From positions 1-64,000 of the forward strand of contig JAGWLO010000006.1 in NCBI GenBank assembly GCA_028872015.1: a stretch of DNA of 64,000 nucleotides, written 5' to 3'. A program made the position numbers and the translations under genes. Source of the DNA: Burkholderiales bacterium. GTDB taxonomy: Bacteria; Pseudomonadota; Gammaproteobacteria; Burkholderiales; Burkholderiaceae_C. Below, piece by piece: positions 9,729 through 49,111 of the stretch. The notes under the pieces are model-generated. The model made no database searches, had not been told where the DNA came from, and saw only the letters and a program-made list of their open reading frames with translations. The stretch's first letter is position 1; the number at the start of each line of letters is the position of its first letter.

Positions 9729-9748
9729 ACCGGCATCCGGCTTGCCAG

Positions 9749-9769: not shown

Positions 9770-9818
9770 CGTGGACGCTGCGCCGCTGCCGGCGGGCGGC
9801 CTGCGCCACAATGGCCGC

Positions 9819-10337: not shown

Positions 10338-10353
10338 GTGCCGCGGGGCCCGC

Positions 10354-11430: not shown

Positions 11431-11443
11431 TCGCGCCGCTCGC

Positions 11444-31143: not shown

Positions 31144-31160
31144 GGTGCAGGCCCGGTGCG

Positions 31161-32304: not shown

Positions 32305-32736
32305 TCAGGCGCGGGCCGCGGGGCGGCTGCCGATCTCGCGCCACGCATCCTGCAGCGGGCGCATCAGGCGCTGGCACTCGTCGAGCGCCGATTCGTCGTT
32401 GTGCAGGTTGGCCAGCGTCAGGCGCTGGCAGAGGTAGAGGTACAGCGCGTCGAGGTCGCGTGCCAGCGTGCCGCCGGCGCGCAGGTCGAGCCCGCCGCGC
32501 AGGCCTTCCTCGACGATGCTGGTGGCGCGCCGGATGGCCCGGCCCTTGAGCTCGAACTGCCGCTCGCGCATCGCGCCCCGGGCCTGGGCCAGCGCTTCCA
32601 TGAAGCCCTCGAACAGCATCGCCACCAGGTGGTGCGGCGTGGCGCCGTCGAGCTGCGACTCGATGCCCACCTGCTGGTACAGGTCGCCGAACGACTGGGC
32701 GGCGGTGCTGCGGCGGGCGTAGGGGCTGGTGAACAT
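32305..32736 (-). CDS. fliS: Flagellar export chaperone FliS
   Basis: A 143-residue FliS, the flagellin chaperone. Family-typical are AQSFGDLYQQVGIESQLDGATPHHLVAMLFEGFMEAL near the N-terminus, KGRAIRRATSIVEEGLRGGLD in the middle, and DLDALYLYLCQRLTLANLHND. It follows fliD by 117 bp and precedes fliT. Confidence 0.96.
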   Translation of the reverse strand: MFTSPYARRSTAAQSFGDLYQQVGIESQLDGATPHHLVAMLFEGFMEALAQARGAMRERQFELKGRAIRRATSIVEEGLRGGLDLRAGGTLARDLDALYLYLCQRLTLANLHNDESALDECQRLMRPLQDAWREIGSRPAARA

Positions 32737-32853
32737 GCTGCGGCGCGTGCGATGGACTGTGATGCCTGGTTATCGGCCCGCGCCGGGCCCCACTTGAGAC
32801 GGGTGCGACAGGCTCGACGGGCGCGACGGGCGCGACGAGTGCCCGGCCGCGGG

Positions 32854-34284: not shown

Positions 34285-34370
34285 GCGTTGCTCCCGTCGT
34301 GGCTGTGCCATCGGCCGCCACCCGCGTGCGCACCCGTGCCGGGGGCGGCGCGCAGCGACTCGATAGGGCC

Positions 34371-34397
34371 TTATCGGCCGTCTGCGGCGCGGCTTGA
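34371..34397 (-). promoter_or_regulatory. Candidate sigma-28 (FliA) promoter of fliD
   Basis: On the minus strand TCAAGCCG (34397-34390), an 11-bp spacer and GCCGATAA (34378-34371). The -10 is an exact match to the enterobacterial FliA consensus GCCGATAA and the spacer has the expected length; the -35 is weak (4/8). Its position about 87 bp before the fliD ATG fits a class III transcript for fliDST. Confidence 0.6.
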
Positions 34398-34429: not shown

Positions 34430-35284
34430 CTACTTCAGCAGCGACAGCACCTGCTGCGGCAGCTGGTTGGCCTGGGCGACCATGGCGTTGCCGGCCTGCT
34501 GCAGGATCTGGGCGCGCGACAGGCTGGCGGTTTCGGCGGCGTAGTCGGCGTCCATGATGCGGCTGCGCGCGGCCGTCTGGTTCTCGGCCGAGACCTGCAG
34601 GTTCGACACCACGCTGGCGAAGCGGTTCTGCACCGCGCCGTAGGTGGCGCGCTGGCTGTTGATGGCCGTGATCGCGGCGTCGATGTTGGTGATGGCGGCC
34701 GTGGCACCGGTGCCGTCGGTGCCCGAGATGCCCGAGACGGCAACGCCCATCGCGTTGCCGACCGCACCGGTGACGGCGTTGGTCGACCACGAGAAGCCGG
34801 CGATCGTGATCTGGTCCAGCGTGGCGCTGGTGTTGGCGCCGATCTGGAACGTCGACGTCGCCGTGCTGGCCAGGATGGTCTGGCCGTTGAACTGGGTGCC
34901 GGCCAGGGTGCGCTTGGCTTCTTCGGCCAGCTGCTGGTATTCGGCATCGAGGCTGGTGCGGTCGGTGCTGGAGTTGGTGCCGTTGGCGGCCTGCACGGCC
35001 AGCTCGCGCATGCGCTGCAGCATGTTGGTGACGTTGCCCAGGGCGCCTTCGGCCGTCTGCGCCATCGAGATGCCGTCGTTGGCATTGCGCATGGCCACGT
35101 TCATGCCGCGCACCTGCGAATCCATGCGGGTGGCGATGGCCAGGCCGGCGGCGTCGTCCTTGGCGCTGTTCACGCGCAGGCCCGAGGACAGGCGCTGCAT
35201 CGAGGTGGCCAGCGACGCCTGGCTCATGCTCAGGTTGCGCTGGGCATCCAGCGAGATCAGGTTCGTGTTGATGGTCTGGGGCAC
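34430..35284 (-). CDS. fliC: Flagellin (downstream copy)
   Basis: A 284-residue flagellin with conserved D0/D1 ends (TINTNLISLDAQRNLSMSQASLATSMQRLSSGLR and the C-terminal NQLPQQVLSLLK) and only a short Ser/Thr/Gly-rich centre, so it lacks the bulky outer domains. By my count it differs from the neighbouring copy at 25 positions with no indels, about 91% identical. The start is GTG at 35284 with AAGGAG upstream. I see no sigma-28 match in its 214-bp leader, and a strong terminator of the other copy lies in that gap. Probably glycosylated, given the adjacent glycosyltransferase island. Confidence 0.96.
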   Translation of the reverse strand: MPQTINTNLISLDAQRNLSMSQASLATSMQRLSSGLRVNSAKDDAAGLAIATRMDSQVRGMNVAMRNANDGISMAQTAEGALGNVTNMLQRMRELAVQAANGTNSSTDRTSLDAEYQQLAEEAKRTLAGTQFNGQTILASTATSTFQIGANTSATLDQITIAGFSWSTNAVTGAVGNAMGVAVSGISGTDGTGATAAITNIDAAITAINSQRATYGAVQNRFASVVSNLQVSAENQTAARSRIMDADYAAETASLSRAQILQQAGNAMVAQANQLPQQVLSLLK

Positions 35285-35498: not shown

Positions 35499-36353
35499 TC
35501 AGCGCAGCAGCGACAGCACCTGGTTGGGCAGCTGATTGGCCTGCGCCACCATCGCGTTGCCGGCCTGCTGCAGGATCTGCGAGCGCGAGAGGTTGGACGT
35601 CTCGGCCGCGTAGTCGGCGTCCATGATGCGGCTGCGTGCGGCCGTCTGGTTCTCGGCCGAGAGCTGCAGGTTCGACACCACGTTGGCGAAGCGGTTCTGC
35701 ACCGCACCGTAGGTGGCGCGCTGGCTGTTGATGGCCGTGATCGCGGCGTCGATGTTGGTGATGGCGGCCGTGGCGCCGGTGCCGTCGGTGCCCGAGATGC
35801 CCGAGACCGCGGTGCCCAGCGCGCTGCCGACGGCGCCGGTGACGGCGTTGGTCGACCAGTTGAAGCCGGCCACCGTGATCTGGTCCAGCGTGGTGCTGGT
35901 GTTGGCGCCGATCTGGAAGGTGGAGGTCGCGGTCGTGGCCAGCACGTTCTGGCCGTTGAACTGCGTGCCGGCCATCGTGCGCTTGGCTTCCTCGGACAGC
36001 TGCTGGTATTCGGCATCCAGGCTGGCGCGGTCGGTGCTGGAGTTGGTGCCGTTGGCGGCCTGCACGGCCAGTTCACGCATGCGCTGCAGCATGGTGGTGA
36101 CGTTGCCCAGGGCGCCTTCGGCCGTCTGCGACAGCGAGATCGCGTCGTTGGCGTTGCGCATGGCCACGTTCATGCCGCGCACCTGCGAATCCATGCGGGT
36201 GGCGATGGCCAGGCCGGCGGCGTCGTCCTTGGCGCTGTTGATGCGCAGGCCCGAGGACAGGCGCTGCATCGAGGTGGCCAGCGACGCCTGGCTCATGCTC
36301 AGGTTGCGCTGGGCATCCAGCGAGATCAGGTTGGTATTGATGGTCTGGGACAT
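35499..36353 (-). CDS. fliC: Flagellin (upstream copy)
   Basis: A 284-residue flagellin, paralogue of the copy at 34430-35284, with intact D0/D1 regions and a short central domain. The block around GTDGTGATAAITNIDAAIT is identical in both. Of the 25 differences I count, 15 involve Ser or Thr, relevant if these are O-glycan sites. It has an ATG start with AGGAGA-like leader, two sigma-28-like promoters upstream and a strong terminator downstream, so it looks like the main independently expressed copy. Confidence 0.96.
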   Translation of the reverse strand: MSQTINTNLISLDAQRNLSMSQASLATSMQRLSSGLRINSAKDDAAGLAIATRMDSQVRGMNVAMRNANDAISLSQTAEGALGNVTTMLQRMRELAVQAANGTNSSTDRASLDAEYQQLSEEAKRTMAGTQFNGQNVLATTATSTFQIGANTSTTLDQITVAGFNWSTNAVTGAVGSALGTAVSGISGTDGTGATAAITNIDAAITAINSQRATYGAVQNRFANVVSNLQLSAENQTAARSRIMDADYAAETSNLSRSQILQQAGNAMVAQANQLPNQVLSLLR

Positions 36354-36596: not shown

Positions 36597-36623
36597 TTTT
36601 CGTCAGCCGCTGCCAAACCTTTA
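36597..36623 (-). promoter_or_regulatory. Candidate sigma-28 promoter P2 of upstream flagellin
   Basis: Minus strand TAAAGGTT (36623-36616), 11-bp spacer, GACGAAAA (36604-36597). Thirteen of 16 positions match the FliA consensus, better than P1, but it would give a leader of about 235 bases. The rest of the 36354-36773 gap shows no gene; it also carries the promoter of the GT41 gene on the other strand, which I could not locate. Confidence 0.45.
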
Positions 36624-36773: not shown

Positions 36774-38717
36774 ATGACCTGTCCCGACCCCGTGCCCGCA
36801 CCCGCGTCCCCGGCCGTCCAGGCCAGCGACCGTTGGCAGCAAGGCCTGGCGTTCGCCGAGCGCGACGACTGGGCGGCCGCCGCCCAGGCCTTCGGCGACG
36901 CGGTCTCGGCCGCACCGCAGGACCTGCTGTACTGGTTGAACCTGGCCAACGCGCGCCGCCACGAGCACGCCTGGGAGGCCGCCATCGCGGCGGCCGAGGC
37001 CTGCCTGCGCATCGCGCCCGAAGACCCGATCGCGCTGCGCCTGATCGGCGACTGCCTGACCCAGCTGCACCGCTACGCCGAGGCGGTGGCGGTGTTCGAA
37101 CGGCTGGCCGCGACAGGGGCCGAAGAGGCCGACGCCATGCTGCAGCACGGTGGCAACCTGCTGGCGCTGCGGCGCCCGCGCGAAGCCCTGGCCGTGCTGC
37201 TGCGGGCCAGCGCCGTGGAGCCCACCCGGATCCAGGTGCACGCGATGCTGGCCACCGCCTTTCGCGATCTGGCGCTGCAGCACGAGGCCGTGGAGTGCCT
37301 GCGCACCGTGCTGGCGCTGGACCCGCACAACCTGCAGGCCCGCTCGCACCTGTCGTACGAGCGCCGGCACATCTGCGACTGGGCCGATCTGGCCCAGGCT
37401 GTGGCCGATCTCGAGCAGGCGCTCGCGGCCGGCGGGCCCGACACCGCGCGCATGGCCAGCGTGTTCAGTCTGCACTCGCTGCCGATCGACCCGATGCTGC
37501 TGCTGGCCGCCGCGCGCGGCGAGGCGCTGGTGGCCGCGCGCGGCGTGCGGCGGCTGCCGGCGCTGCAGCCGGCGGCCTTCTCGGATCGCCGGCTGCGGCT
37601 GGGGCTGCTGTCGTACGACTTCCACGAGCACCCGGTGTCGCAGCTGCTGGTCGAGGTGCTGGAGCGGCTGGACCCGCAGCGCATCGAGCTGCGGCTGTAC
37701 TCCACCGGCCCCGACGACGGCTCGGCCCTGCGCGCCCGCGTGCGCGCAGCGGCCCACGCCTTCGTCGACCTGCGCGGCCTGAGCGACGAGCAGGCTGCCG
37801 CGGCCATCCGGGCGGACGGCGTGGAGCTGCTGGTCGACCTGCAGGGCCACACCCGCGGCCAGCGCCTGGGCATCCTGGCGCGGCGGCCGGCGCCGCTGCA
37901 GGTGGCCTTCCTCGGGTTCCCCGGCAGCACGGGCGCGCCGTTCATCGACTACCTGATCGGCGACCCGCTGGTCACGCCGCTGGCCTTGCAGCCGCAGTAC
38001 AGCGAACGGCTGGCGCAGATGCCGCGGTGCTTCCAGCCCAACGGCCGCTGGCGTCCGCTGCCGCAGCCGATGGCCCGCGCCGAGGCCGGGCTGCCCGAGG
38101 ACGCGTTCGTGATGTGTGCCTTCAACCACACCTACAAGATCCTGCCCGCGGCCTTCGACGCCTGGTGCGCGGTGCTGCGCGAGGTGCCGCGCGCCGTGCT
38201 GTGGCTGAAGGAGACGAACGCGCAGCTGCATGCCAACGTCGCGCGCGAGGCCGCCGCGCGCGGCGTGGCCGCCGGGCGCATCCTGTACGCGCGCGGCGTG
38301 CCCTATGCCGAGCACTTCTCGCGCCTGGCGCTGGCCGACGTGTTCGTCGACACCTGGCCGTACAACGCGCACACCACCGCCAGCGATGCCTTGTGGGCCG
38401 GCGTGCCGGTGGTCACGGTCTACGGCAACAGCTTCGCCTCGCGCGTGGCCGCCAGCGTGCTCAGCGCCGCCGGCCTGGGCGAGCTGGCCTTCGCCGATGC
38501 CGAGTCCTACCGCACCGCGATCCTGGCGCTGGCGCTGGATGCCGAGCTCCTGGCCGGCTACCGGCGCCACCTCAACGCGCAAAGGCTGGCCTTGCCGCTG
38601 TTCGACAGCGCGGGCTATGCCCGCGACTTCGAGAACCTGCTGTGGCGCATGGGCGAACGCTGGCGCGCCGGCCTGCCGCCCGAGGCTCTGCCGGCCCAGC
38701 CATGCGCATCGGCCTGA
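36774..38717 (+). CDS. TPR-GT41 (SPINDLY/OGT-like) protein O-glycosyltransferase, copy 1
   Basis: A 647-residue protein with tetratricopeptide repeats over about residues 20-205 and a C-terminal GT41 catalytic domain. The catalytic half is recognised by LRLGLLSYDFHEHPVSQLLVEVLE, VDLQGHTRGQRLGILARRPAPLQVAFLGFPGSTG and DVFVDTWPYNAHTTASDALWAGVPVV, all typical of bacterial OGT/SPINDLY-like enzymes that glycosylate Ser/Thr (flagellins or adhesins). ATG at 36774 follows GAGGAAG. It is divergent from the flagellins and overlaps the next gene by 16 bp. A paralogue lies at 44803. Target (flagellin) is inferred from location. Confidence 0.88.
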   Translation: MTCPDPVPAPASPAVQASDRWQQGLAFAERDDWAAAAQAFGDAVSAAPQDLLYWLNLANARRHEHAWEAAIAAAEACLRIAPEDPIALRLIGDCLTQLHRYAEAVAVFERLAATGAEEADAMLQHGGNLLALRRPREALAVLLRASAVEPTRIQVHAMLATAFRDLALQHEAVECLRTVLALDPHNLQARSHLSYERRHICDWADLAQAVADLEQALAAGGPDTARMASVFSLHSLPIDPMLLLAAARGEALVAARGVRRLPALQPAAFSDRRLRLGLLSYDFHEHPVSQLLVEVLERLDPQRIELRLYSTGPDDGSALRARVRAAAHAFVDLRGLSDEQAAAAIRADGVELLVDLQGHTRGQRLGILARRPAPLQVAFLGFPGSTGAPFIDYLIGDPLVTPLALQPQYSERLAQMPRCFQPNGRWRPLPQPMARAEAGLPEDAFVMCAFNHTYKILPAAFDAWCAVLREVPRAVLWLKETNAQLHANVAREAAARGVAAGRILYARGVPYAEHFSRLALADVFVDTWPYNAHTTASDALWAGVPVVTVYGNSFASRVAASVLSAAGLGELAFADAESYRTAILALALDAELLAGYRRHLNAQRLALPLFDSAGYARDFENLLWRMGERWRAGLPPEALPAQPCASA

Positions 38718-39412
38718 TCCAGACCCGCGGCATCGGCGACATCGTCATCGCGCTGCCGATCGCGGCCTGGCATCTGCGCCAGGGCCACGAAGTGCTGTGG
38801 CCGGTGGATGCGCAATGGCTGCCCTTCCTGCAGGCCGCGGCGCCGCAGGTGAGCTTCCTGCCGGTGGACGCTGCCCTGCGCGGCACGCTGGCCTACATGC
38901 TGGACGAGCCGCGGCGGCTCCTGCAGGCCCAAGGCTGCGACAAGATCGTGTCGCTGTACTCGTACGTCAATGGGCGCGCCGACCTGGTCGAGCCGCGGCT
39001 GGCCAGTTCGCTCAAGTTCGACGAATACAAGTACGCGGTGGCCGGCGTGCCCTTCGCCGAGAAGTGGGCCCTGCAGCTGGTGCGCGACCGCCCCGCCGAG
39101 CAGCGCCTGATCGAGCGGCTGCGACTGGGCGGGCCGTATGCGGTGGTGCACGACCAGGGTTCGAACTTCAGATTCGACATCCAGATCCCGGCCGCGGTCA
39201 GTGCGCAGCTGCAGGTGGTGCGCATCGAGCCGCTGACTGCCAACCCGTTCGACTGGATCGGGGTGCTGGAAGGCGCCAGCATGCTGGCCATGATCGACAG
39301 CTGCTTCTCCAATCTGGTCGAGCAGATGGACCTGGGGCGCAACCGCCACTTCTTCCTGCGCTCGGCCGTGGGATTCACGCCCGTATTCCGCAACGCCTGG
39401 ACGTTCTACTGA
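38702..39412 (+). CDS. Short GT9/heptosyltransferase-like protein
   Basis: A 236-residue protein starting MRIGLIQTRGIGDIVIALPIAAWHLRQGHEVLWPV, the N-terminal nucleotide-sugar glycosyltransferase pattern of GT9 (heptosyltransferase-like) proteins. The later part (PYAVVHDQGSNFRFDIQ and WIGVLEGASMLAMIDSCFSNLVEQM) resembles the GT9 C-terminal nucleotide-binding half in abbreviated form; ordinary heptosyltransferases are about 100 residues longer. ATG at 38702 overlaps the GT41 gene by 16 bp. It could be a glycosyltransferase acting with the GT41 protein; activity uncertain. Confidence 0.65.
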   Translation: MRIGLIQTRGIGDIVIALPIAAWHLRQGHEVLWPVDAQWLPFLQAAAPQVSFLPVDAALRGTLAYMLDEPRRLLQAQGCDKIVSLYSYVNGRADLVEPRLASSLKFDEYKYAVAGVPFAEKWALQLVRDRPAEQRLIERLRLGGPYAVVHDQGSNFRFDIQIPAAVSAQLQVVRIEPLTANPFDWIGVLEGASMLAMIDSCFSNLVEQMDLGRNRHFFLRSAVGFTPVFRNAWTFY

Positions 39413-39429
39413 CCCCGCACCCGCCGGGA

Positions 39430-40443
39430 TCAGGCCGCGCGCAACGACCCCAGCCCTTCGGCCAGCACCGCCAGGTTGTGCGCCGCCAGGTGGCTGCCGC
39501 GGCCGGCGACGCTGCCCGGCTGATCGGGCTGCTCGCCGATCTCCAGGCAGCGCTGCCAGGCCCACTGTGCCATCGGCAGCAGCTCGAGGTGGCGCGCCGG
39601 CTCGGTGGCCGCCCAGTCCAGCAGCAGGTCGCCGAGCGCGAAGTAGAAGTCGGGCGAGTCGGCGCAGTCGGCCAGGCGCGGCTGCGCGAACTGCAGGGCT
39701 TCGGCATGCCGCCCCAGCCGCTTCAGCGCGTAGAGCTGGCGCGCCGCGAGCTCGTGGCGCCAGGGGCAGCCGGCCGGACGCAGGGCCTCGGCGCGCGCGA
39801 AAGCCTGCGCGGCCTCGGCCTGCTCGTCGTAGGCGGCGCAGTCCTTGCCCAGGTGGAACCACAGGTAGGCATCGTCGGGCGCAGCGGCCAGCGCCTGCAC
39901 CAGCAGCGGGCGGTTGCGGTGGCGCTTGCGCGCCAGGCCGGCCGCGTCGTAGCCGTCGTGGGCCACGCGCAGCGGCAGGCGCCGCACCGGCCGGCGGTGC
40001 TGCGGCTGTTCGTGGATGGTGCCGGCGTAGCGCACCTCGCCCGGCAGCACGCGGCTCAACCAGTTGCGCGCCGTGCCGGCGGCGGCTCCTTCGTCCTCCA
40101 GCCGGAGGGCACCCACGAAATCGGGCGCCTGGTGCCGCAGCGCCGCCAGCGCGGGGCCGCCGTCGAGCAGCCACTCGTCGGCGTCCAGCACCAGATGCCA
40201 GTCGGCCGCGGCCCGGTCCAGCGCAGCGTTGCGCGCGGCGGCGAAATCGTCGCACCAGTCGAAGTGCGCCACCCGCGCGCCGCAGGCCCGCGCGACGGCC
40301 ACCGTGTCGTCGCGCGAGCCGGTGTCCAGCACCAGCATCTCGTCGACCCAGGGCGCCACGCTGCGCAGCAGCCGCGCGATGCGCGGCGCCTCGTCGCGCG
40401 CGATCACGGCCAGGGCGATGCGGCGGGCCGCGACCGACGTCAC
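39430..40443 (-). CDS. GT2 glycosyltransferase with C-terminal TPR-like region
   Basis: A 337-residue protein. Residues 1-210 form a GT-A fold: IALAVIARDEAPRIARLLRSVAPWVDEMLVLDTGSRDDT, then ALDRAAADWHLVLDADEWL with the metal-binding DAD. Helical repeats with TPR-like spacing follow (YLWFHLGKDCAAYDEQAEAAQAFARAEAL; FYFALGDLLLDW). This is the SunS/TPR-type GT2 architecture. The start is GTG at 40443, a GTGA overlap with the upstream acetyltransferase stop. Last gene of the minus-strand island, convergent with the GT9-like gene. Confidence 0.82.
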   Translation of the reverse strand: MTSVAARRIALAVIARDEAPRIARLLRSVAPWVDEMLVLDTGSRDDTVAVARACGARVAHFDWCDDFAAARNAALDRAAADWHLVLDADEWLLDGGPALAALRHQAPDFVGALRLEDEGAAAGTARNWLSRVLPGEVRYAGTIHEQPQHRRPVRRLPLRVAHDGYDAAGLARKRHRNRPLLVQALAAAPDDAYLWFHLGKDCAAYDEQAEAAQAFARAEALRPAGCPWRHELAARQLYALKRLGRHAEALQFAQPRLADCADSPDFYFALGDLLLDWAATEPARHLELLPMAQWAWQRCLEIGEQPDQPGSVAGRGSHLAAHNLAVLAEGLGSLRAA

Positions 40444-41084
40444 TTGATGCTCCGCGCCGGCACGCCGGCATAGGTTCCGGGCTCGGCGATGTTGCGCGTC
40501 ACCACGGCGCCTGCACCGATGATGACGTCGGCGCACAGGCTGCGACCTTCGAGCACCTGGCTGCCGGTGCCCAGCAGGCAGGCGTCGCCCAGCACCACAC
40601 CGCCCGAGACGTTGGCGCCGGGGTTGACGACGCCGTACGAGCCGATGCGCGCATCGTGGCCGACGGTGCAGTTGAGGTTGAAGACGTTGAAGTCGCCGAC
40701 TTCGATGTCGCAGGTGAACTGCGCACCGCTGGCCACGAGGTTGCCGAGGCCGAGGCGGACCCGGCGCGGATCGAGACCGGCGGCCGGGTGCACCAGGTTC
40801 GGCGCCTGCAGGTGCGGCCAAGCGGCCAGCCGCTGCGCAATCGTGCGGCGCAGGCCCGGATGGCCGATGCCGATGGCCACGTCCGCCGGTCGATCCAGGT
40901 TCGACAGCAGCGCGTCCGTGCCGGCCACCCGCCCGAACGTCAGCATGCGGCCGATCTCGGCCTCGCCCTGCGCCAGGAATTCGATGTCGCGCCAGCGCGG
41001 CGGACCGGCTTCCTGGATCGCCGTCGCCACCTGGGCCACCTCTTTGGCGAAGCCGCCGGTGCCCAGGATGTAAAGGATGCGCAT
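40440..41084 (-). CDS. NeuD/PglD-family sugar O/N-acetyltransferase
   Basis: A 214-residue enzyme with an N-terminal nucleotide-binding part (ILYILGTGGFAKEVAQVA) and a C-terminal left-handed beta-helix with hexapeptide repeats (IEVGDFNVFNLNCTVGHDARIGSYGVVNPGANVSGGVVLGDACLLGTGSQVL), ending NIAEPGTYAGVPAR. NeuD/PglD enzymes acetylate nucleotide-linked amino sugars such as the UDP-4-amino sugar of bacillosamine synthesis. It fits with the DegT aminotransferase two genes upstream. ATG at 41084, 12 bp after the GT gene. Confidence 0.85.
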   Translation of the reverse strand: MRILYILGTGGFAKEVAQVATAIQEAGPPRWRDIEFLAQGEAEIGRMLTFGRVAGTDALLSNLDRPADVAIGIGHPGLRRTIAQRLAAWPHLQAPNLVHPAAGLDPRRVRLGLGNLVASGAQFTCDIEVGDFNVFNLNCTVGHDARIGSYGVVNPGANVSGGVVLGDACLLGTGSQVLEGRSLCADVIIGAGAVVTRNIAEPGTYAGVPARSIK

Positions 41085-41095
41085 CGGTGAAGGCT

Positions 41096-42289
41096 TCAGT
41101 GGATGCCGCAGACGGCCAGGTAGCGGTCCATGCCCTTGAGCTGCTGCACGAGCGGCGCGTGCGAGCGCGCGCAGCGCCGCGCCGGCTGCCAGTCGGCGGG
41201 CGCCAGCGCCAGCACGGCCAGCACGCTGGCCAGGTCGTAGCCGGCGGCGACGAAGGCCCCGGGCGCGTGGCGCTCGAGGAATTCCTGGATCGCCACGCAG
41301 CCCTCGGCCACCAGCACCGGCTTGCCCAGGCTCAGCGCCTCGGGGACGATGCCGCTCATCTTGTCGCCGTAGTGCAGCGGGTCGTACAGCGCCCACACCG
41401 CATCGACGTCGGCCATCTCGGCCAGGTACTCGGCGTTGCTGGTGCCGCGGCTTTGCGCGTCGATCCACGGCGCGATCTGTTGCAGATGCTGGCACAGCCC
41501 CGCATAGCCCTGCGGCAGCCGGATGCGCAGCCGGCAGGCCGGGGTGCGCCCGGCCGCGGCGAGCGCTTGCGCGGCCTGCTGCAGCAACTGGATGCCCTTG
41601 CTGCCGAAGGGCGTGCCGAAGAACCCCAGCGTGGGTGGCCCACGGTCGTCGCGCGCGGCCGAGGCCGCCGCCAGCCCGGCCAGCCGGCCGGCATTGGCCG
41701 TGGCCAGCGGCGGCAGCAGCGTGGCCAGGGCCACGCGCTGCGCACCGAAGTGGAAGTGTCCGGTTTCCGAATAGGCGAAGGCCTGCGTCGTGGCAGCCAG
41801 GCCCTGCACGCCTGCCGCAAAGGCCTCGCCCACGCGCTGCTGTGAAGCCGCGTCGTCGGCCCAGAAGGCGCAGGGCAACAGCATGCCCAGTACCGACCGC
41901 AGGGCCGGGGGCACGCGCTGGTGTTCGGCGCTGCGGGCCAGTGCCAGCAGGTGCAGCGGGTAGACGGTGGGCATGAGCCAGGCGTCGAAGCCCGCCAGCT
42001 GCGCGGGCGGCAGGTCCTCGGCCACCGTCTGCAGCAAGCGGTCGAGGCGCGCCGGGTCGGCCAGGTCGGCGGCGGCCGGCCGGGCGTAGCCGTCGAGACG
42101 GCAGGCAGGCCGCAGTTCGGCGCGCAGGTCGGCGAACTCACGCGGGTCGAGCCGCGCGGAGCCGAACACCGTCAGTGCATGGCCGCGTTCGCCCACCAGG
42201 GCCTCGTCGAACTCGGCCAGCATGGCCGCGTTGTGACCGCTGCGGCGGCTGAGGCCGGGGTCGATGTAGGCGATCTTCATCCGCGGCAT
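41096..42289 (-). CDS. GT4-like glycosyltransferase
   Basis: A 397-residue GT-B-type glycosyltransferase. The N-terminal Rossmann part begins MKIAYIDPGLSRRSGHNAAML; the C-terminal half has LGFFGTPFGSKGIQLLQQAAQAL and YDPLHYGDKMSGIVPEALSLGKPVLVAEG, the nucleotide-sugar E-x7-E-like region of GT4. Two in-frame ATGs, 42289 and 42280; the ribosome site does not decide between them. It sits between the acetyltransferase gene and another GT, separated from the latter by a 72-bp gap holding a hairpin. Confidence 0.75.
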   Translation of the reverse strand: MPRMKIAYIDPGLSRRSGHNAAMLAEFDEALVGERGHALTVFGSARLDPREFADLRAELRPACRLDGYARPAAADLADPARLDRLLQTVAEDLPPAQLAGFDAWLMPTVYPLHLLALARSAEHQRVPPALRSVLGMLLPCAFWADDAASQQRVGEAFAAGVQGLAATTQAFAYSETGHFHFGAQRVALATLLPPLATANAGRLAGLAAASAARDDRGPPTLGFFGTPFGSKGIQLLQQAAQALAAAGRTPACRLRIRLPQGYAGLCQHLQQIAPWIDAQSRGTSNAEYLAEMADVDAVWALYDPLHYGDKMSGIVPEALSLGKPVLVAEGCVAIQEFLERHAPGAFVAAGYDLASVLAVLALAPADWQPARRCARSHAPLVQQLKGMDRYLAVCGIH

Positions 42290-42320
42290 GTCAACCGCAC
42301 TTGGTCCGAAGCCGCCGACC

Positions 42321-42357
42321 GCCCCCTCGTGGGGCAGGAGCGGAGCGATGCGGGGGC
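42321..42357. repeat. Intergenic palindromic element
   Basis: GCCCCC at 42321-42326 pairs with GGGGGC at 42352-42357 (6 bp); an inner alternative is GCCCC (42321-42325) with GGGGC (42331-42335). It fills most of the 72-bp gap between two glycosyltransferase genes. It may be a dispersed repeat or transcript-processing hairpin; copy number cannot be judged here. Confidence 0.35.
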
Positions 42358-42361
42358 TGGT

Positions 42362-43558
42362 TCATCCCAGGGCCGATCGCAGCGTGGCCAGCATCTCCAG
42401 CCCGCTGGCCAGGCTCAGGTACTCGATCTGCTCGAGGTCGAAGGGCCGGCGGTCGGCCGCGCTGCCCGGTGTCGAGGCGGCCACGGCATCGAAGGCCTGC
42501 GCCAGCGCACCGGGGCGCTGGGGGTCGAACAGGTGCACGGCGCCGAATTTCAGCTCGCGGTTGGTGTCGATGTCGCTGGCGATCACGGGCGTGCCCAGCA
42601 GCGCCGCCTCCAGCGTGCCGCTGGCCCCCGGGCCGCCCTCGAACTGGCTTGCCTGCACCACCGCGCATGCGCCGGCCACCAGCTGCAACTGCTCGTCGCG
42701 CGGCAGCAGCCCGAGCTGGCGCACCTGCGGACGCAGCGCCAGCGCGTCGATCTGGCGCTCGATCGCCTGGGCATAGCCGGGGTTGCGGTGGTCGGTCAGC
42801 TCGCCGGTGAACACGAGCTGCAGCGCCGCGTTCGCTTGCGAGCGCCGGTGCTCGGCGTAGGCTGCGATGACGAGTTCATGCTGCTTGTGCTGCCAGCGCT
42901 GGCTGCAGCTGAGCAGGTAGGGTGCGGTGATGCCGTGGCGCGCCTGAACCTCGGCGCGACGGTCCTCGAAGGCCGAGCCCAGGTCGGGGTAGAGCTGTGG
43001 GATGCGGTGGATGCGGCGGCTGCGTGCCGCTGCCGGGTAGAAGCGCTGCACGTCGGCGGCCACCGCCGCGGCATTGACGAACACGGCGTGGGCGCCCTCG
43101 ACCATGGCGCGCAGGTGGGCGTCACGCGCATGGCGTTCGGCGGCCGAGAAGAAGTGCGGCAGGTACTGGTGCTGGAAGTCGGGCAGGTAGGCGAACCAGG
43201 GCTGCCGGACCGCGGCCCCGGGGTGGCTGCCGGTGGGTCCGATGACCTGCACCTCCAGCGCCGCCAGCGTGGCCGCCAGATCCTTGTGGAAGATCAGGGT
43301 CTGCAGCCCCGGCACGCCCTCGATCAAGGCGCGCATCGGGCCGGTGGCCTGCACCTGCTCGCGCCGCAGCGGCAGGAAGTCGCGCGTCTCGCGCTGCAGC
43401 TCGGGCGGCAGGTGGCGGGCGCTGAACAGCACGTGGATGCCGGCGTTCTGCGCCGGCGCGGCGCGCAGCACGCTGTTGAGCATGGCCGCCAGGATGGCGG
43501 CACCGCCCATCCAGGCAATGTAGTAGTCGGCCAGGTAGGCGACCGAAAGGCGGCGCAT
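42362..43558 (-). CDS. GT4-family glycosyltransferase
   Basis: A 398-residue GT-B glycosyltransferase. Near the C-terminus QLVAGACAVVQASQFEGGPGASGTLEAALLGTPVIASD is the GT4 donor-binding signature (E-F-G-G-P...E), and APYLLSCSQRWQHKQHELVIAAYAEHR the typical interdomain linker start. N-terminal acceptor domain begins LSVAYLADYYIAWMGGAAILAAML. ATG at 43558 is 25 bp after the aminotransferase gene. Acceptor and sugar unknown; context suggests a flagellin glycan or surface polysaccharide. Confidence 0.88.
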   Translation of the reverse strand: MRRLSVAYLADYYIAWMGGAAILAAMLNSVLRAAPAQNAGIHVLFSARHLPPELQRETRDFLPLRREQVQATGPMRALIEGVPGLQTLIFHKDLAATLAALEVQVIGPTGSHPGAAVRQPWFAYLPDFQHQYLPHFFSAAERHARDAHLRAMVEGAHAVFVNAAAVAADVQRFYPAAARSRRIHRIPQLYPDLGSAFEDRRAEVQARHGITAPYLLSCSQRWQHKQHELVIAAYAEHRRSQANAALQLVFTGELTDHRNPGYAQAIERQIDALALRPQVRQLGLLPRDEQLQLVAGACAVVQASQFEGGPGASGTLEAALLGTPVIASDIDTNRELKFGAVHLFDPQRPGALAQAFDAVAASTPGSAADRRPFDLEQIEYLSLASGLEMLATLRSALG

Positions 43559-43583
43559 CGTGCAGGGACCCCGGGCGCCGGGT

Positions 43584-44720
43584 TCAGGCGGCCAGCGCCA
43601 GGCCGGGACGCCGTGCCGCGAAGTCGCCGTAGTAGCCGTGCACGGCGGCGCAGACCTCGCCCACCTCGGCATCGCTCAGGCCGGGAAAGCTGGGCAGGTT
43701 GATGCCGCGCCAGGCGATGCCCTCGGCCACCGGGTTGCGCTGGAAGCGGTGCGAGTACATCGGCATCGTGTGGATCGGGTTGAAGGCCGGGCGCGTCTCG
43801 ATGCCGCGTTCGGAGAGGTGGCGGCGCAGCGCGTCGCGCTCGGCCGGGTCGTCCACCAGCACCGTCACCATCCAGTAGCTGTGGGTGGCGTCGGCCGCCT
43901 CGGCATGCACCGTCACCGGCGCGCCCCGCAGCCCGGCGCGGTACAGCGCCGCGATCTGGCGCTTGCGCTCGATGAAGGTCTCCAGCCGTTCGAGCTGCGC
44001 TACGCCGAGGGCGGCGCAGATGTTGGTCATGCGGTAGTTGAAGCCGACCACGTCGTGCCAGTACTCGCGGTGCGCGGCCAGCCCCTGGCCGCGAAAGTGC
44101 CGTGCGCGTTCGATGATGGTGCGGTCGCTGCTGAGGACCATGCCGCCTTCGCCGGTGGTCAGCGTCTTGTTTCCGAAGAAGCTGAAGGTGGCGACGTCGC
44201 CGAAGGTGCCGACGTTGCGGCCCTTGTAGGCGGTGCCGATGGCCTCGGCGCAGTCCTCGACCAGGAACAACCGGTGGCTGCGGCACAGCGCCATCAGCGC
44301 GTCCATGTCGCAGGGGTGGCCGTACAGGTGCACCGCCATGATGGCCTTGGTGCGCGGCGTGATCTTGCGCGCCACGTCCTCGGGGTCGATCTGCCAGGTG
44401 GAGGCCAGCGAGTCGGCGAACACCGGCGTGGCGCCGGTGTAGGCCACCGCGTTGGCCGAGGCGATGTAGGTGAGCGTGGGCACGATCACCTCGTCGCCGG
44501 GACCGATGCCCAGCGCCACCAGGGCCAGGTGCAGCGCCACCGTGCCGTTGCACACGCTGGCCGCGTGCGCCGTGCCCACGCGCCGCGCGAAGCCCTGCTC
44601 GAACTCGCCGATGAAGCGCCCCTTGGACGAGATCCACGACGACTCCAGGCACTCCATCACGTAGGCCTTCTCGTTGCCGCCGAGGTCGGGACGGTAGACC
44701 GGGATGTGGTGCTCGTTCAT
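43584..44720 (-). CDS. DegT/DnrJ/EryC1/StrS-family sugar aminotransferase
   Basis: A 378-residue PLP-dependent sugar aminotransferase. Signature elements are NGTVALHLALVALGIGPGDEVIVPTLTYIASANAV near residue 60, FLVEDCAEAIGTAYKGRNVGTFGDVATFSFFGNKTLTTGEGGM near 155 with Lys as the PLP-binding residue, and GFNYRMTNICAALGVAQLE. Closest in pattern to perosamine/4-amino-4-deoxy sugar synthases (PglE-like), which act on 4-keto-6-deoxy nucleotide sugars. It is in a minus-strand run with the NeuD/PglD acetyltransferase. ATG at 44720. The 4,6-dehydratase needed to make its substrate is not in the window. Confidence 0.93.
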   Translation of the reverse strand: MNEHHIPVYRPDLGGNEKAYVMECLESSWISSKGRFIGEFEQGFARRVGTAHAASVCNGTVALHLALVALGIGPGDEVIVPTLTYIASANAVAYTGATPVFADSLASTWQIDPEDVARKITPRTKAIMAVHLYGHPCDMDALMALCRSHRLFLVEDCAEAIGTAYKGRNVGTFGDVATFSFFGNKTLTTGEGGMVLSSDRTIIERARHFRGQGLAAHREYWHDVVGFNYRMTNICAALGVAQLERLETFIERKRQIAALYRAGLRGAPVTVHAEAADATHSYWMVTVLVDDPAERDALRRHLSERGIETRPAFNPIHTMPMYSHRFQRNPVAEGIAWRGINLPSFPGLSDAEVGEVCAAVHGYYGDFAARRPGLALAA

Positions 44721-44754
44721 GGCGGCGTGCGGGGTTGGAGGCGAACCCATTCTT

Positions 44755-44769
44755 GGGGGCGCGGCCCCC
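44755..44769. repeat. Small GC-rich hairpin between island genes
   Basis: GGGGGC (44755-44760), loop GCG, GCCCCC (44764-44769): perfect 6-bp stem in the 82-bp gap between the second GT41 gene and the aminotransferase gene. No T-run; possible attenuating or processing hairpin. Confidence 0.35.
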
Positions 44770-44802
44770 GCCCGATCGCCGGAAAAGCAGGCCCTCGGGC
44801 CC

Positions 44803-46770
44803 TCAGATGGCCGGCAGGTGCCCCGGCGGCAGGCCCTGGGCGCGGCGCGTCGCCATGCGCAGGAACAGGGCTTCCAGGTCGCGCGCGAAGCGCCGGCTGT
44901 CGAACAGCGGCGCCTGCGTGCGGGCCGCGGCGAGCTGCGCGCGCAGGGCCCGGCGCCGCGGCGCATCGCCGGCCAGCGCCAGCACCAGGGCCTCGTAGCC
45001 GGCCCGGTCGGCGGCCACCAGCTCGGGCAGGCCCACCGCGTTCAGCAGGCTCGCCCCCACCCGCGAGGCGAAGGTGGGGCCCAGCGTCGTGACCACCGGC
45101 ACGCCGGCCCACAGCGCGTCGCTGGCGGTGGTGTGGGCGTTGTAGGGCCAGGTGTCGATGAACAGGTCGGCCAGCTGCAGCCGGGCCATGTGCGCGGCCA
45201 GGGGCACGCGCGGCGCACCGATCAGGCGCTGCGGTGCAATGCCTCGGGCCGCGGCCTCGCGCTGCAGGTTCGGCAACGCCTGGGTGCCCCAGGCGAAGAG
45301 CCAGAGCACCGCGTTCGGCAAGCCGGCGAGCAGCCGGCACCAGCTGTCCATCACCTCGGCGGAGATCTTGTAGGGCTGGTTGAAGCAGCACAGCACCAGC
45401 GCGTCGTCGGGCAGGCCCTGCGAGGCGCGGCTGGGCGCCGGCGGCAGGGGGCGCTGGCGGTCGTTGGGCTGGTACGAGGCCGGCAGCTGGGCGATCTTCT
45501 CGCTGTAGTCGGCGGCATGGGCCAGCGGCGTGACGATGGTGTCGCCGATCACGTAGTCCATCCAGGCGGCGCCGGTGGTGCCGGGGAAGCCCAGGAAGGT
45601 GGCCTGCAGCGGCGCCGGGCGCTGGGCGAAGATGCCCAGGCGGTGGTCCTTGGTGTGGCCCTTCAGGTCGATCAGCAGGTCGATGCCGTCGGCGCGGATG
45701 CGCCGTGCGGCTTCGTGGTCGCTGCTGCGGGCCAGGTCGATGAAGCGGCCGCCGCCGGCCTGCAGCCGGGCCCGCATCGTGCTGCCGTCGTCGGGGCCGT
45801 GCGAGTACAGGTGCACGTCGAAGGCGCTGCGGTCGTGCAGTTCCAGCACCTCGGCCATCAGGTTGGCCGTGGCGTGGTCGTGGAAGTCGGCCGAGACGTA
45901 GCCCAGGCGCAGGGGCCGCGTGCCGGGCCGCCAGGCGCCGTGCCCCGGCGCTGGCGGAGCGAGCGGCAGGCCCGGCAGCGAGGCCACTTCGGCCGTGATG
46001 AAGCGGGCGGCGCTGGCGGCGGCGCGGTGCTGCTCGGCCCGGCTGTCGGTGAACGCGGCATGGGCGAAGGGCGCGGTGCGCAGCGCGGCCGCGTCGGGCA
46101 GCAGCTGCACCTCGGCGCGCAAGGTGGCCAGGCTGGCCTCGAGCTCGCGGCCCCAGTGGCAGCCGCTGCGGGCCGCGAACAGGGCCAGGCCGCGCGTGGC
46201 CAGCGCCTGGTCGCCCACGCCCAGCATCAGCGCGGTCTCGAAGCAATGCGCCGCCTCCTGGTACATCTGCAGATCGTCGAAGCACTGCCCCAGGTTGTGG
46301 TGGCTGGCCGCATCCTGTGGCACCAGCGCCAGGGCATCGAAGAAGGCGCCCACGGCCTCGCTGGGCCGGTGCAGGCGCTGCAGGGCGCGGCCGAGTGCCG
46401 CGTGGGCGGCGTGGTCGCGTGGCTGACCAGGCCGGGCGAGCAGGGCCACGGCTTCATCGCTGCGCTGCAGTTGCAGCAGACCCTGTACAGCCAGCTCGCG
46501 CGCGGCGGCCAGCTGCGGATCCAGCCCATGGGCGCGCAGCGCCTCGGCGGTGGCGCGCTCGACGTCGCCCTGGGCCCACAGCGCCCGTGCGTGGTTCACG
46601 GCGTACAGCGCGTCCTGCGGCTGCAGCCGGGCGGCCTGCGCGTGAGAGCGCGCCGCCGCATCCCAACGCGCGGCCCGGGCATGGGCCTGGCCGAGCTGCC
46701 AGTGGTGCTGCGCCTCGCGGGCCCGGCGGCTGACTTTGACGGGGGGTGCGGCGCGGGCAGCAACAGGCAT
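44803..46770 (-). CDS. TPR-GT41 (SPINDLY/OGT-like) protein O-glycosyltransferase, copy 2
   Basis: A 655-residue paralogue of the protein at 36774. TPR repeats cover about residues 15-210 (HWQLGQAHARAARWDAAARSHAQAARLQPQDAL; SHHNLGQCFDDLQMYQEAAHCFETAL). The GT41 domain has LRLGYVSADFHDHATANLMAEVLE, LIDLKGHTKDHRLGIFAQRPAPLQATFLGFPGTTG and DLFIDTWPYNAHTTASDALWAGVPVVT. It matches bacterial OGT/SPINDLY enzymes more closely than copy 1 (YVSADFHDHA form). It probably starts the island transcript on the minus strand, 107 bp after argE. Target inferred to be flagellin. Confidence 0.9.
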   Translation of the reverse strand: MPVAARAAPPVKVSRRAREAQHHWQLGQAHARAARWDAAARSHAQAARLQPQDALYAVNHARALWAQGDVERATAEALRAHGLDPQLAAARELAVQGLLQLQRSDEAVALLARPGQPRDHAAHAALGRALQRLHRPSEAVGAFFDALALVPQDAASHHNLGQCFDDLQMYQEAAHCFETALMLGVGDQALATRGLALFAARSGCHWGRELEASLATLRAEVQLLPDAAALRTAPFAHAAFTDSRAEQHRAAASAARFITAEVASLPGLPLAPPAPGHGAWRPGTRPLRLGYVSADFHDHATANLMAEVLELHDRSAFDVHLYSHGPDDGSTMRARLQAGGGRFIDLARSSDHEAARRIRADGIDLLIDLKGHTKDHRLGIFAQRPAPLQATFLGFPGTTGAAWMDYVIGDTIVTPLAHAADYSEKIAQLPASYQPNDRQRPLPPAPSRASQGLPDDALVLCCFNQPYKISAEVMDSWCRLLAGLPNAVLWLFAWGTQALPNLQREAAARGIAPQRLIGAPRVPLAAHMARLQLADLFIDTWPYNAHTTASDALWAGVPVVTTLGPTFASRVGASLLNAVGLPELVAADRAGYEALVLALAGDAPRRRALRAQLAAARTQAPLFDSRRFARDLEALFLRMATRRAQGLPPGHLPAI

Positions 46771-46877: not shown

Positions 46878-48068
46878 TCAATCCAGCGCCGCCGCCAACC
46901 CCCGCAGAAACCCCTCGGCCCGCGCCAGTTGCTCCAGGCTCACGTACTCGTCGGCCTGGTGCGCCTGCTGGATCGAGCCCGGGCCGCAGACCACGGTGGA
47001 GCAGCCGGCGCGCTGGAACAGGCCGGCCTCGGTGCCGAAGGCCACCAGCGTGGTCCGCGCGCTGCCCGCCAGGCGCTGCGCCAGGCGCACCGCGGGCTCG
47101 TCGGCGCTGGCCAGGAACGAGGGCATGTGCGCGGTCTGCTCGAAGCGGAAGCCGGCGCCGGGATCGACGGCGCGCATCGCCGGCTCCAGGCTCGCGGCGT
47201 AGGCCGCCACGCGCTGCTGCAGCGCCGCCGCGTCGGCGCCCGGCAGGTCGCGGAATTCGTAGTGGAAGCGGCAGTCCTCGGGCACCACGTTGTCGGCGAT
47301 GCCGCCTTCGATCACGCACACCGCGGCCGTGCTGTGCGGCACGTCGAAGCCGGCCTGGCGCGGGCCCTGCTCGCGCAGCTCGTCGGCGATGCCGGCGATG
47401 CGCGAGACCACGCGCGCCGCGGCCTCCACCGCGTTCACCGCCTGCGGCGCCAGCGAAGAATGTGCGGCCCGGCCGCGCACGCAGCAGCGCCAGCGGTGCA
47501 CCCCCTTGTGGGCCGTGGCCGGCACCATCGAGGTGGGCTCGCCCACGATGCACAGCCGCGGCGCGCTGCCGGTGCGGCCCAGCAGGCCGGCCTGCTCGAG
47601 GTCGGCGATCAGGCGCCGGGCGCCGAAGCCGCCCACCTCCTCGTCGTAGCTGAACGCGAAGTGGATGGCGTGCGGCAGGTCGGCTTCCAGCCAGGCCTGC
47701 GCCTGCGCCACGACGAGGCCGATCCAGCCCTTCATGTCGGCGCTGCCGCGGCCGTACAGGCGCTGGTCGCGCAGCTCGGCACCCAGGGGCTCGCAGGTCC
47801 AGGCCTGGCCGTCCCAGGGCACGGTGTCGGTGTGGCCCGACAGCAGCACGCCGGCCGGCTTGCCCAGGCCGATGGTGGCGCACAGATTGGCCTTGGCGCG
47901 CGCGTCGTCCCAGGTCAGGCGCAGCGGCAGGCCCAGGCTGCGCAGGTGGTCGGCGATGGTCTCGATCAGCGCCAGGTTGCTGCGGTGGCTGACGGTGTCC
48001 AGGCGCACCAGGCGCTGCGCCCATTGCAGCCCGGCGGCCGAGACCTCGGAGGTGGCGGTGGCAGTCAT
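46878..48068 (-). CDS. argE: Acetylornithine deacetylase (ArgE, M20 family)
   Basis: A 396-residue M20 metallopeptidase-family enzyme matching acetylornithine deacetylase of arginine synthesis. Metal-site features are LLSGHTDTVPWDGQ near residue 80, GRGSADMKGW near 110, AFSYDEEVGGFGARRLI near 140 and a GVHRWRCCVRGRAAHSS dimerisation-domain segment near 190; the C-terminus has AFGTEAGLFQRAGCSTVVCGPGSIQQAHQADEYV. Divergent from a dehydratase gene with only 29 bp between starts; a TACAGT box lies six bases before its ATG. Confidence 0.93.
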   Translation of the reverse strand: MTATATSEVSAAGLQWAQRLVRLDTVSHRSNLALIETIADHLRSLGLPLRLTWDDARAKANLCATIGLGKPAGVLLSGHTDTVPWDGQAWTCEPLGAELRDQRLYGRGSADMKGWIGLVVAQAQAWLEADLPHAIHFAFSYDEEVGGFGARRLIADLEQAGLLGRTGSAPRLCIVGEPTSMVPATAHKGVHRWRCCVRGRAAHSSLAPQAVNAVEAAARVVSRIAGIADELREQGPRQAGFDVPHSTAAVCVIEGGIADNVVPEDCRFHYEFRDLPGADAAALQQRVAAYAASLEPAMRAVDPGAGFRFEQTAHMPSFLASADEPAVRLAQRLAGSARTTLVAFGTEAGLFQRAGCSTVVCGPGSIQQAHQADEYVSLEQLARAEGFLRGLAAALD

Positions 48069-48097: not shown

Positions 48098-49111
48098 ATG
48101 CGCCCCGGACCCGCCGCCGACCCTGCTGCCGATCCCGCGGCCGATCCCGCGGCCGACGATGCCGCGGACGATGCCGTGGTGGATGCCGCCGCCGTGCGGC
48201 GCGCGGCCGTGCGCATCGCCGGCCACGTGCGGCGCACGCCGCTGTGGCGGCTGCCCGGCGCCGAGCTCGGCCTGCCCTGCGCCGAGGTCTGGCTCAAGCT
48301 CGAGCATCTGCAGCGCGGCGGCAGCTTCAAGGCGCGCGGCATGTTCAACGCGCTGCTGGCGCAGCCGGCGCCGCCGGCCGGCGTGGTCATCGCCTCCGGC
48401 GGCAACGCCGGCATCGCCGCGGCCACCGCGGCGCAGGCGCTGGGCTTGCCGTGCGAGGTGTTCGTGCCGGCCCTCACCGGCCCGGCCAAGCGCGCGGCGC
48501 TGGCCGCGCTGGGCGCGCGCGTGGTGGTGGGCGGGGCCGACTACGCCGAGGCCCTGGCCGCCTGCCGGCAGCGCCAGCACGGCAGCGGCGCGTTGATGCT
48601 GCATGCCTACGACCAGCCGGCGGTGGTGGCCGGCGCGGGCACCCTGGCGCTGGAGATCGAGGCGCAGTCGGGCCGGGGCCTGCCCGACCGGCTGCTCGTC
48701 AGCGTGGGCGGCGGCGGCCTGGTGGCCGGCATCGCGGCCTGGACCGCCGGCCGCTGCCGTGTCGAGGCCCTCGAGCCGCCCGGCGCGCCCACGCTGCAGG
48801 CCGCCCTGGCCGCCGGCCAGCCGGTGGACGTGGCCGTGTCGGGCCTGGCCGCCGACGCGCTGGGGGCGCGCCGCCTGGGCGGCATCGCCTGGCCGATCTG
48901 CCGGCGCTGGGTGGCGGCGGCGCATCTCGTGCCCGAGCCGGCCATCCGCGCCGCGCAGCAGCAGCTGTGGCAGGTGCTGCGGCTGGCGGTGGAGCCCGCG
49001 GCGGCACTGCCGCTGGCGGCGCTGGCGGCCGGCATCGTGGCGCCCGCCGCGCACGAGCGCGTGGCGCTGGTGCTGTGCGGGGCGAACCTCGACCCGGCCG
49101 GGCTGGCGTGA
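48098..49111 (+). CDS. Threonine/serine dehydratase-like PLP enzyme
   Basis: A 337-residue fold-type II PLP enzyme of the serine/threonine dehydratase group. The PLP lysine is in QRGGSFKARGMFNAL (near residue 82) and the phosphate-binding loop is SVGGGGLVAGIAAW near residue 207; ASGGNAGIAAATAAQALG is the Asn-Gly loop. No ACT regulatory domain, so biosynthetic IlvA is unlikely; a catabolic dehydratase or racemase is possible. Residues 6-25 are an acidic Ala/Asp/Pro repeat encoded by a 12-bp tandem repeat, unusual for the family; a later start is possible. Probably leaderless. Confidence 0.82.
   Translation: MRPGPAADPAADPAADPAADDAADDAVVDAAAVRRAAVRIAGHVRRTPLWRLPGAELGLPCAEVWLKLEHLQRGGSFKARGMFNALLAQPAPPAGVVIASGGNAGIAAATAAQALGLPCEVFVPALTGPAKRAALAALGARVVVGGADYAEALAACRQRQHGSGALMLHAYDQPAVVAGAGTLALEIEAQSGRGLPDRLLVSVGGGGLVAGIAAWTAGRCRVEALEPPGAPTLQAALAAGQPVDVAVSGLAADALGARRLGGIAWPICRRWVAAAHLVPEPAIRAAQQQLWQVLRLAVEPAAALPLAALAAGIVAPAAHERVALVLCGANLDPAGLA
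48117..48166 (+). repeat. Tandem 12-bp repeat in the dehydratase gene start
   Basis: The unit CCGATCCCGCGG occurs at 48129-48140 and 48141-48152, flanked by decayed copies (ccgaccctgctg before; ccgacgatgccg and cggacgatgccg after). It encodes the DPAA/DDAA repeat at the N-terminus. In-frame copy-number changes would lengthen or shorten the N-terminal tail only. Confidence 0.65.

Follow-up and report, generated by a model that had tools for sequence, protein, structure and literature searches.

The flagellin glycosylation islands of the Enterobacteriaceae hold genes for SPINDLY/GT41 glycosyltransferases, NeuD, DegT/FdtB and FkbM proteins (De Maayer & Cowan 2016, PMC4875605), and that survey records GT41-methyltransferase as well as FkbM proteins among their products. 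In Caulobacter, FlmG, which joins tetratricopeptide repeats (TPR) to a GT-B glycosyltransferase domain, is described as required for flagellin modification, its TPR domain binding the flagellins (PMC7591256), and Listeria GmaR, also a glycosyltransferase (GT) with TPR, is described as placing N-acetylglucosamine (GlcNAc) on flagellin (PMC9638930). The present analysis deals with a locus of a Burkholderiales bacterium contained in a stretch of 64,000 nucleotides, here called the window (contig C88; the draft genome comprises 3.8 Mb; all positions are window positions). At 36774-46770, beside two flagellin genes, the window carries two genes for TPR-GT41 enzymes, here OGT1 and OGT2, which enclose six sugar genes, as the initial annotation had stated. 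By comparison with relatives, the GT41 clade of these enzymes is tied to flagellin, OGT1 is found in the same place in related genomes and the site of the remaining genes is variable; the locus rather probably encodes a two-layer flagellin O-glycosylation island, in which a conserved OGT1 core is joined by an accessory block.

The likeness to the enterobacterial islands extends to the insertion at a flagellin locus, the presence of a SPINDLY-domain GT41, NeuD and DegT, and the high variability between relatives. The differences lie in the site, which is flagellin/argE instead of fliC-fliA, and in the combination of two GT41 enzymes with a GT2, a GT4 and two unassigned GT-like proteins, where the survey reports a single GT family per island, as a tendency and not as a definition (PMC4875605). 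The GT41 enzymes of the window resemble FlmG in their TPR N-terminus, their GT-B-type C-terminus, their solubility and the presence of several flagellins, a likeness of architecture, but FlmG needs pseudaminic acid (PMC7591256). No neuB or pse gene scores over cut-off in the island, the genome scan having been made with the PseB model alone and neuB not having been searched. With GT and sugar genes inserted at a flagellin locus and a content that varies at the same site among relatives, the island is, by its gene content, of a known kind (PMC4875605) in a new layered make-up, in which a lineage-specific block containing a second GT41 and mixed GT families is added to a conserved GT41. The initial proposal of an undescribed system has therefore to be narrowed to this mix of GT families. 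A literature search returned no paper, judged by title and start of abstract, on GT41 flagellin islands of Burkholderiales or Rubrivivax, which does not prove that none exists.

Association of the GT41 enzymes with flagellin

The family set was drawn from a search with OGT1 through 150 family genomes, 85 of which gave a match at E≤1e-20; its 59 regions cover the listed relatives' matches down to E 3e-90. These regions were picked by similarity to OGT1 and not by flagellin, and the C50 region of the window's own genome was excluded. In 33 of the 59 regions, a GT41 gene has a flagellin gene at a distance of 3 kb or less. In the midpoint-rooted GT41 tree, OGT1 and OGT2 fall in one clade (support 0.94), which holds 36 relatives' sequences from 34 loci; flagellin is found within 3 kb in 33 of these loci (35 of the 36 sequences), the exception, L063, being a 6.3 kb contig. 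Outside the clade, 2 of 28 GT41 sequences are in a locus holding flagellin. A second collection (genome_contigs), made of the best 80 of 582 confirmed relatives and overlapping in part with the family set, has flagellin within 3 kb at 62 of its 80 loci. The nearest GT41 gene is divergent from flagellin in 22 of the 33 family loci and in 57 of the 62 loci among the best 80, and it lies downstream in the same orientation, at most 250 bp away, in 6/33 and 5/62, respectively. Three genomes (G078, G116 and G127) have two separate flagellin loci each, with a GT41 at every one. The gene neighbourhoods thus argue strongly that the clade is tied to flagellin, and flagellin O-glycosylation is a well-supported role for the island, as first proposed, also in the light of the absence of a clear membrane segment from the proteins it encodes (hydropathy scan; the highest 19-residue mean, 1.96, is in GTx, see below).

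At L045, L055, L059, L062, L068 and L071 another flagellin type was observed, divergent from that of the window (38-43% identity) and each time with its own flagellin-clade GT41 at most 250 bp behind it on the same strand.

Apart from OGT1 and OGT2, no GT41 gene was found in the draft genome; both carry N-terminal TPR before the GT41 domain (Pfam). Recent duplication of one GT41 was considered and rejected, the two proteins being 45% identical and placed in different supported branches. OGT1 groups with the orthologues whose loci are compared below (support 87-90); its relatives at 58-65% identity number 12, and flagellin adjoins in all of them except L116, a 3.2 kb contig. The sister of OGT2 is L052 (62% identical, support 0.999/100), which itself sits at a flagellin locus. 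The difference in core motifs noted initially was also found: OGT1 has HPVS and DLQGHT, as against the HAT- and D-KG-type motifs of OGT2 and of 18 of the 19 other aligned clade members (exception, L042). Within the OGT1 lineage, HPV- is present in L042/L120, L118, L119 and L121, and DLQG- in L042/L120, L110, L111, L113, L114 and L115; L118 and L119 have DLAGHT instead, and the motif expressions matched nothing in some other rows of this lineage.

The invariant residues of a 21-sequence GT41 alignment include H286, K455 and H533-T534-T535, which we equate with active-site residues of human OGT. In structure matches, OGT scored higher than SPINDLY for both enzymes (334 vs 160 bits for OGT1, 323 vs 190 bits for OGT2). 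Because of these scores and of the invariance of the presumed active-site residues, UDP-GlcNAc is mildly favoured as the likeliest donor.

A conserved core and a variable block

The features of the locus and of its flanks are as follows (GTx and the GT9-like protein are named by motif).

32305-32736, minus strand: fliS, flagellin chaperone, a synteny marker (Pfam FliS 118.1 bits, cut-off 26.7)
32854-34311, minus strand: fliD, filament cap, start uncertain (Pfam FliD_C 157.6 and FliD_N 70.3 bits, over cut-offs)
34430-35284, minus strand: flagellin A, 284 aa (Pfam Flagellin_N/C)
35499-36353, minus strand: flagellin B, 284 aa (Pfam Flagellin_N/C)
36774-38717, plus strand: OGT1, TPR-GT41, divergent from the flagellins (Pfam Glyco_transf_41 290.5 bits, cut-off 25)
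38702-39412, plus strand: short GT9-like protein, 236 aa (motif resemblance; start ATG 38702)
39430-40443, minus strand: GT2, GmaR/SunS-like, with a weak TPR-like C-terminus, 337 aa (Pfam GT2 53.1 bits, over cut-off; start GTG 40443)
40440-41084, minus strand: NeuD/PglD/PerB-like sugar N-acetyltransferase (PglD_N and Hexapep over cut-off; start ATG 41084)
41096-42289, minus strand: GTx, GT4-like (GT-B) by motif, without family match
42362-43558, minus strand: GT4 glycosyltransferase (Pfam Glycos_transf_1 41.6 bits, cut-off 26.4; start ATG 43558)
43584-44720, minus strand: DegT aminotransferase (Pfam 431 bits, over cut-off; start ATG 44720)
44803-46770, minus strand: OGT2, second TPR-GT41 (Pfam Glyco_transf_41 324.1 bits, cut-off 25)
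46878-48068, minus strand: argE-like M20 deacetylase, at which the extra block ends on the right (TIGR01892 343 bits, cut-off 297.7)
48098-49111, plus strand: serine/threonine dehydratase-like gene, a flank conserved in relatives (NF006094 399 bits, cut-off 331)

The order flagellin, OGT1, argE, dehydratase is found in five Rubrivivax-type relatives (L111, L112, L113, L115 and L117), in which OGT1 and argE are 28-660 bp apart. This gap is of 8.2 kb in the window, where it contains the GT9-like, GT2, NeuD, GTx, GT4, DegT and OGT2 genes; of 3.8 kb in L114, where it contains two genes for FkbM-domain proteins; and of 6.2 kb in L119, a beta-proteobacterial metagenome-assembled genome, where a GT41-FkbM methyltransferase fusion (L119:10965-13763) is accompanied by a GDP-mannose-dehydratase-like protein. 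At the six remaining OGT1 loci no argE is in view: L120 and L121 have genes for FkbM proteins downstream of OGT1, L118 has a protein (6990-8510) for which no Pfam family matched, L110 has flhDC, L167 has other genes and L116 is the short contig already mentioned. Within the genus, the site changes from genome to genome: in G094 a different GT41 is accompanied by a GT2 homologue (69%) and an argE-like match of 135 residues, and in G269 a GT41 by a GT2 homologue (68%). As judged from this gene order, OGT1 is the resident enzyme and the remainder is a lineage-specific extra block, at a site that in relatives is empty or occupied by other genes. Since the compact relatives have no sugar-nucleotide gene between OGT1 and argE, they are consistent with a housekeeping donor for OGT1.

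OGT1 starts on the plus strand 420 bp past flagellin B, and its stop is overlapped by the GT9-like gene by 16 nt. Facing it is a compact minus-strand run formed by OGT2, DegT, GT4, GTx, NeuD and GT2, the NeuD stop and the GT2 start overlapping by 4 nt; the refined starts of the GT9-like, GT2, NeuD, GT4 and DegT genes were read directly from the sequence. The flagellar genes of the window, all on the minus strand, are those for a fliI-type ATPase, fliH, fliG, fliF and fliT, followed by fliS, fliD (229 bits with the NCBIfam FliD model PRK08032, under its cut-off of 387) and the two flagellins. An origin of the block from a mobile element or foreign DNA was rejected: the GC content at third codon positions (GC3, 0.89-0.96 over the block) is close to that of neighbouring genes, and, among the repeats inspected (20 of 57 direct and 25 of 91 inverted), the only long ones reflect the similarity of the two GT41 genes. 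Two overlapping open reading frames (ORFs) at 30164-31572 on the minus strand, between fliF and a ycgR-like gene, show below-cut-off similarity to minor pseudopilins and type IV pilins.

The accessory glycosyltransferases and the possible sugar

The best solved structures matching GT2 are those of GmaR (2.6e-15) and SunS (4.7e-15), both protein or peptide glycosyltransferases. As in GmaR, its top match, the GT domain comes first, but the protein is of 337 aa rather than 637, its TPR part is weak and there is no room for the C-terminal antirepressor domain of GmaR (PMC9638930). Because of these matches and of this domain order, GT2 is a candidate third protein-modifying enzyme and may not simply be an extender, which changes, for this protein, the initial view of the other glycosyltransferases as extending the glycan. 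A GT2 homologue is found in 12 of the 33 family loci and 21 of the 62 loci (among the best 80) that combine flagellin and GT41.

The DegT and NeuD/PglD labels given initially hold by Pfam, with NeuD just under the cut-off of TIGR03570 (156.3 bits, cut-off 160.8). Among solved structures, DegT best matches GDP-perosamine synthase (3bn1/3dr7, 383 bits; the next other entry, 7b0m, scores 284), and NeuD matches pilin-glycosylation and perosamine N-acetyltransferases; with the LegC model TIGR04181, DegT scores 381.7 bits (cut-off 420). The nearness of the pair to GDP-perosamine synthase and to perosamine/pilin acetyltransferases suggests an N-acetylated 4-amino-4,6-dideoxyhexose, N-acetylperosamine derived from GDP-mannose being the best guess. 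A gmd gene is found on contig C98 (L106:9060-10998; 426.7 bits, cut-off 415), with a match that covers the model from position 84 and the protein from residue 23. Contig C50 encodes a PseB-related dehydratase (156 bits, below cut-off) and a second DegT protein, nearest to the ArnB (389.5 bits) and PseC (384.1 bits) models and below their cut-offs; the best genome match to the PseB model scored 157 bits (cut-off 407.75).

Of the two GT4-like proteins first annotated, that at 42362-43558 is a clear GT4 by Pfam; GTx, at 41096-42289, is so by motif, with no relevant Pfam or NCBIfam match. Among 299 family genomes besides its own, GTx has one clear homologue (38%) and weak matches in two genomes (E 1e-6 to 1e-7). 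The clear homologue (L200:8250-15784, genome G255) stands beside a weak GT-like ORF and an MBG-domain ORF of 1844 residues, which may be an adhesin having glycosyltransferases of its own.

The GT9-like name of the 236-aa protein rests on a motif resemblance to the GT9 heptosyltransferases of autotransporters and lipopolysaccharide (LPS); the protein is about 100 aa shorter than a typical GT9. No relevant Pfam or NCBIfam match, and no GT9 model match up to E 10, was obtained, so that the initial label stands as a motif only, and a single-sequence AlphaFold model (predicted local distance difference test score 38) was too poor to use. The gene is present in 3 of the 299 family genomes, its own included; a class-wide search with a three-row model retrieved its own copy alone among 369 genomes, and a plasmid search with the protein gave no match. 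In genome G162 (L199:84-7061 and 9033-11671), the GT9-like gene again overlaps a GT41 gene by 16 nt, but this GT41 groups outside the flagellin-linked clade and the flagellins are about 0.9 Mb away on the same contig. About 2 kb from the pair, beyond a GT2 gene, lies an adhesin-like ORF of more than 2300 residues with ALTTAQV repeats, the first 1000 residues read being threonine-rich repeats. The fixed overlap supports the pairing of the two genes but is no proof of joint transfer, because the start sequence of the GT9-like gene may itself supply the stop codon. A bolder reading, which we hold to be doubtful, would make GT41 and the 236-aa protein an undescribed, transferable two-enzyme protein O-glycosylation unit, seen with two GT41 clades and combined in the present genome with a second GT41 and a GmaR-like GT2, giving three independent priming enzymes on one short flagellin.

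The G162 pair, with its GT2 and repeat ORF, is a possible protein O-glycosylation locus outside the flagellum. A long open frame of the same genome (L217:3061-10200), at about 5 kb from the flagellin genes of G162, contains several GT41 segments in tandem, which fall outside the flagellin-linked clade.

Proposed mechanism and alternatives

We infer that the enzymes act in the cytoplasm before export, and propose donor sugars, acceptor sites, an order of action and a division of labour as follows. In the first layer, OGT1 would bind flagellin in the cytoplasm through its TPR, by analogy with FlmG, and would transfer a sugar, most likely GlcNAc from UDP-GlcNAc, to serine or threonine residues of an exposed flagellin region, serving both near-identical flagellins; the GT9-like protein would act with it, probably adding a second sugar. 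In the second layer, the products of the block between OGT1 and argE (OGT2, the GmaR-like GT2, GT4, GTx and the DegT/NeuD pair, the last predicted to make a 4-acetamido-4,6-dideoxyhexose) may add further linkage sites and/or extend and cap the glycan.

Several observations weigh against parts of this two-layer scheme. The island is known from genomic evidence throughout. Flagellin is not found within 3 kb at 18 of the best 80 loci, several of which, but not all, are at contig ends, and flhDC, not argE, follows OGT1 directly in L110 and behind an FkbM gene in L120. G195, of the same genus, has a GT2 homologue (47%) and the dehydratase with no GT41 beside its flagellins. As for the block, the GT9-like, GTx, GT4 and NeuD proteins are unmatched at every other flagellin-near locus examined, and DegT has distant matches at 4 of the 33 family loci and 11 of the 62 loci among the best 80; the sole strong GTx homologue and one of the two GT9-like homologues are near long repeat or adhesin-like ORFs. 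The TPR matches of GT2, the second half of its initial GT2-TPR label, are below the Pfam cut-off, one being left in the 337-aa protein at E≤0.001 (20.1 bits vs 42). The argument for UDP-GlcNAc is weakened because the OGT scores include TPR matches. The gmd gene seems to lack about 60 residues near the N-terminus in the assembly, through a real deletion or an assembly error, and it may serve fucose, since a GDP-L-fucose-synthase-like gene (472.5 bits, cut-off 500) adjoins it. Co-regulation of flagellin and GT41 is also unsupported, because sigma28-like sites are on the flagellin side and not on the GT41 side: they were found at 32770-32796 (fliS, 3 mismatches), 34371-34397 (fliD, 1) and 36597-36623 (flagellin B, 2), the GT41 genes of the window and of relatives have no sigma28 promoter at flagellin level, and in the relatives' intergenic regions the flagellin-ward score is at least 10/13 in 48 of 50, as compared with a GT41-ward score of 7-10 (mode 8; no shuffled control).

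Among the alternatives, the one that survives best, although improbable, is that OGT1 acts on flagellin and that all or part of the block serves to modify a different secreted protein, e.g. a threonine-rich adhesin. The G162 locus, with its different-clade GT41 near a repeat protein and away from flagellin, and the MBG-domain ORF adjoining the GTx homologue would fit it, but no adhesin was noticed in the annotated part of the window, OGT2 belongs to the flagellin-linked clade and has a sister beside flagellin, and GT2 homologues are met again at other loci of this kind. We give still less weight to the proposal that the block makes LPS, capsule or exopolysaccharide unrelated to flagellin. O-antigen clusters, too, commonly hold GT4, DegT and NeuD families, and other sugar genes are present elsewhere in the genome; however, family and hydropathy scans recognized no flippase, polymerase, ligase or other membrane protein in the block, which instead has a flagellin-linked position and two kinds of candidate protein glycosyltransferase. 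A similarly low probability is assigned to a replacement island formed by OGT2 and the block, one GT41 being a relic without present flagellin function: the turnover of the site within the genus, G094, G269 and G195 all being different, would agree with it, but both GT41 genes have unbroken reading frames, retain the invariant residues and show host-like GC3 (0.94-0.95). The dedication of each GT41 to one flagellin, raised initially because the window has two of each and reminiscent of the separate flagellin loci with separate GT41s in three genomes, is very unlikely, as flagellins A and B are 91% identical (258/284, 26 differences), in L111, L112 and L115 a single GT41, OGT1, stands between two flagellins and argE, and exactly one GT41 with at least two full-length flagellins is the commonest pattern (18/33 family loci and 37/62 loci among the best 80, as compared with at least two GT41s in 2/33 and 4/62, the other loci having one or no full-length flagellin).

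A third Flagellin_N match in the genome, on contig C44 (89 bits vs about 148 for the window flagellins), is presumably FlgL.

Conclusions

The two-layer organization offers a natural comparison of core and accessory functions at one site, where OGT1 is found alone, with FkbM-domain proteins or with a block containing a second GT41. It makes it possible to test which of the enzymes initiates the flagellin glycan, whether UDP-GlcNAc or a more exotic donor is used by bacterial OGT-type enzymes, and how one small substrate is shared by several protein glycosyltransferases, and it draws attention to a GT9-like protein, as yet unclassified, as a partner of GT41 enzymes. For the organism, the comparison of the locus with those of its relatives suggests that the filament is probably sugar-coated in a lineage-specific manner.

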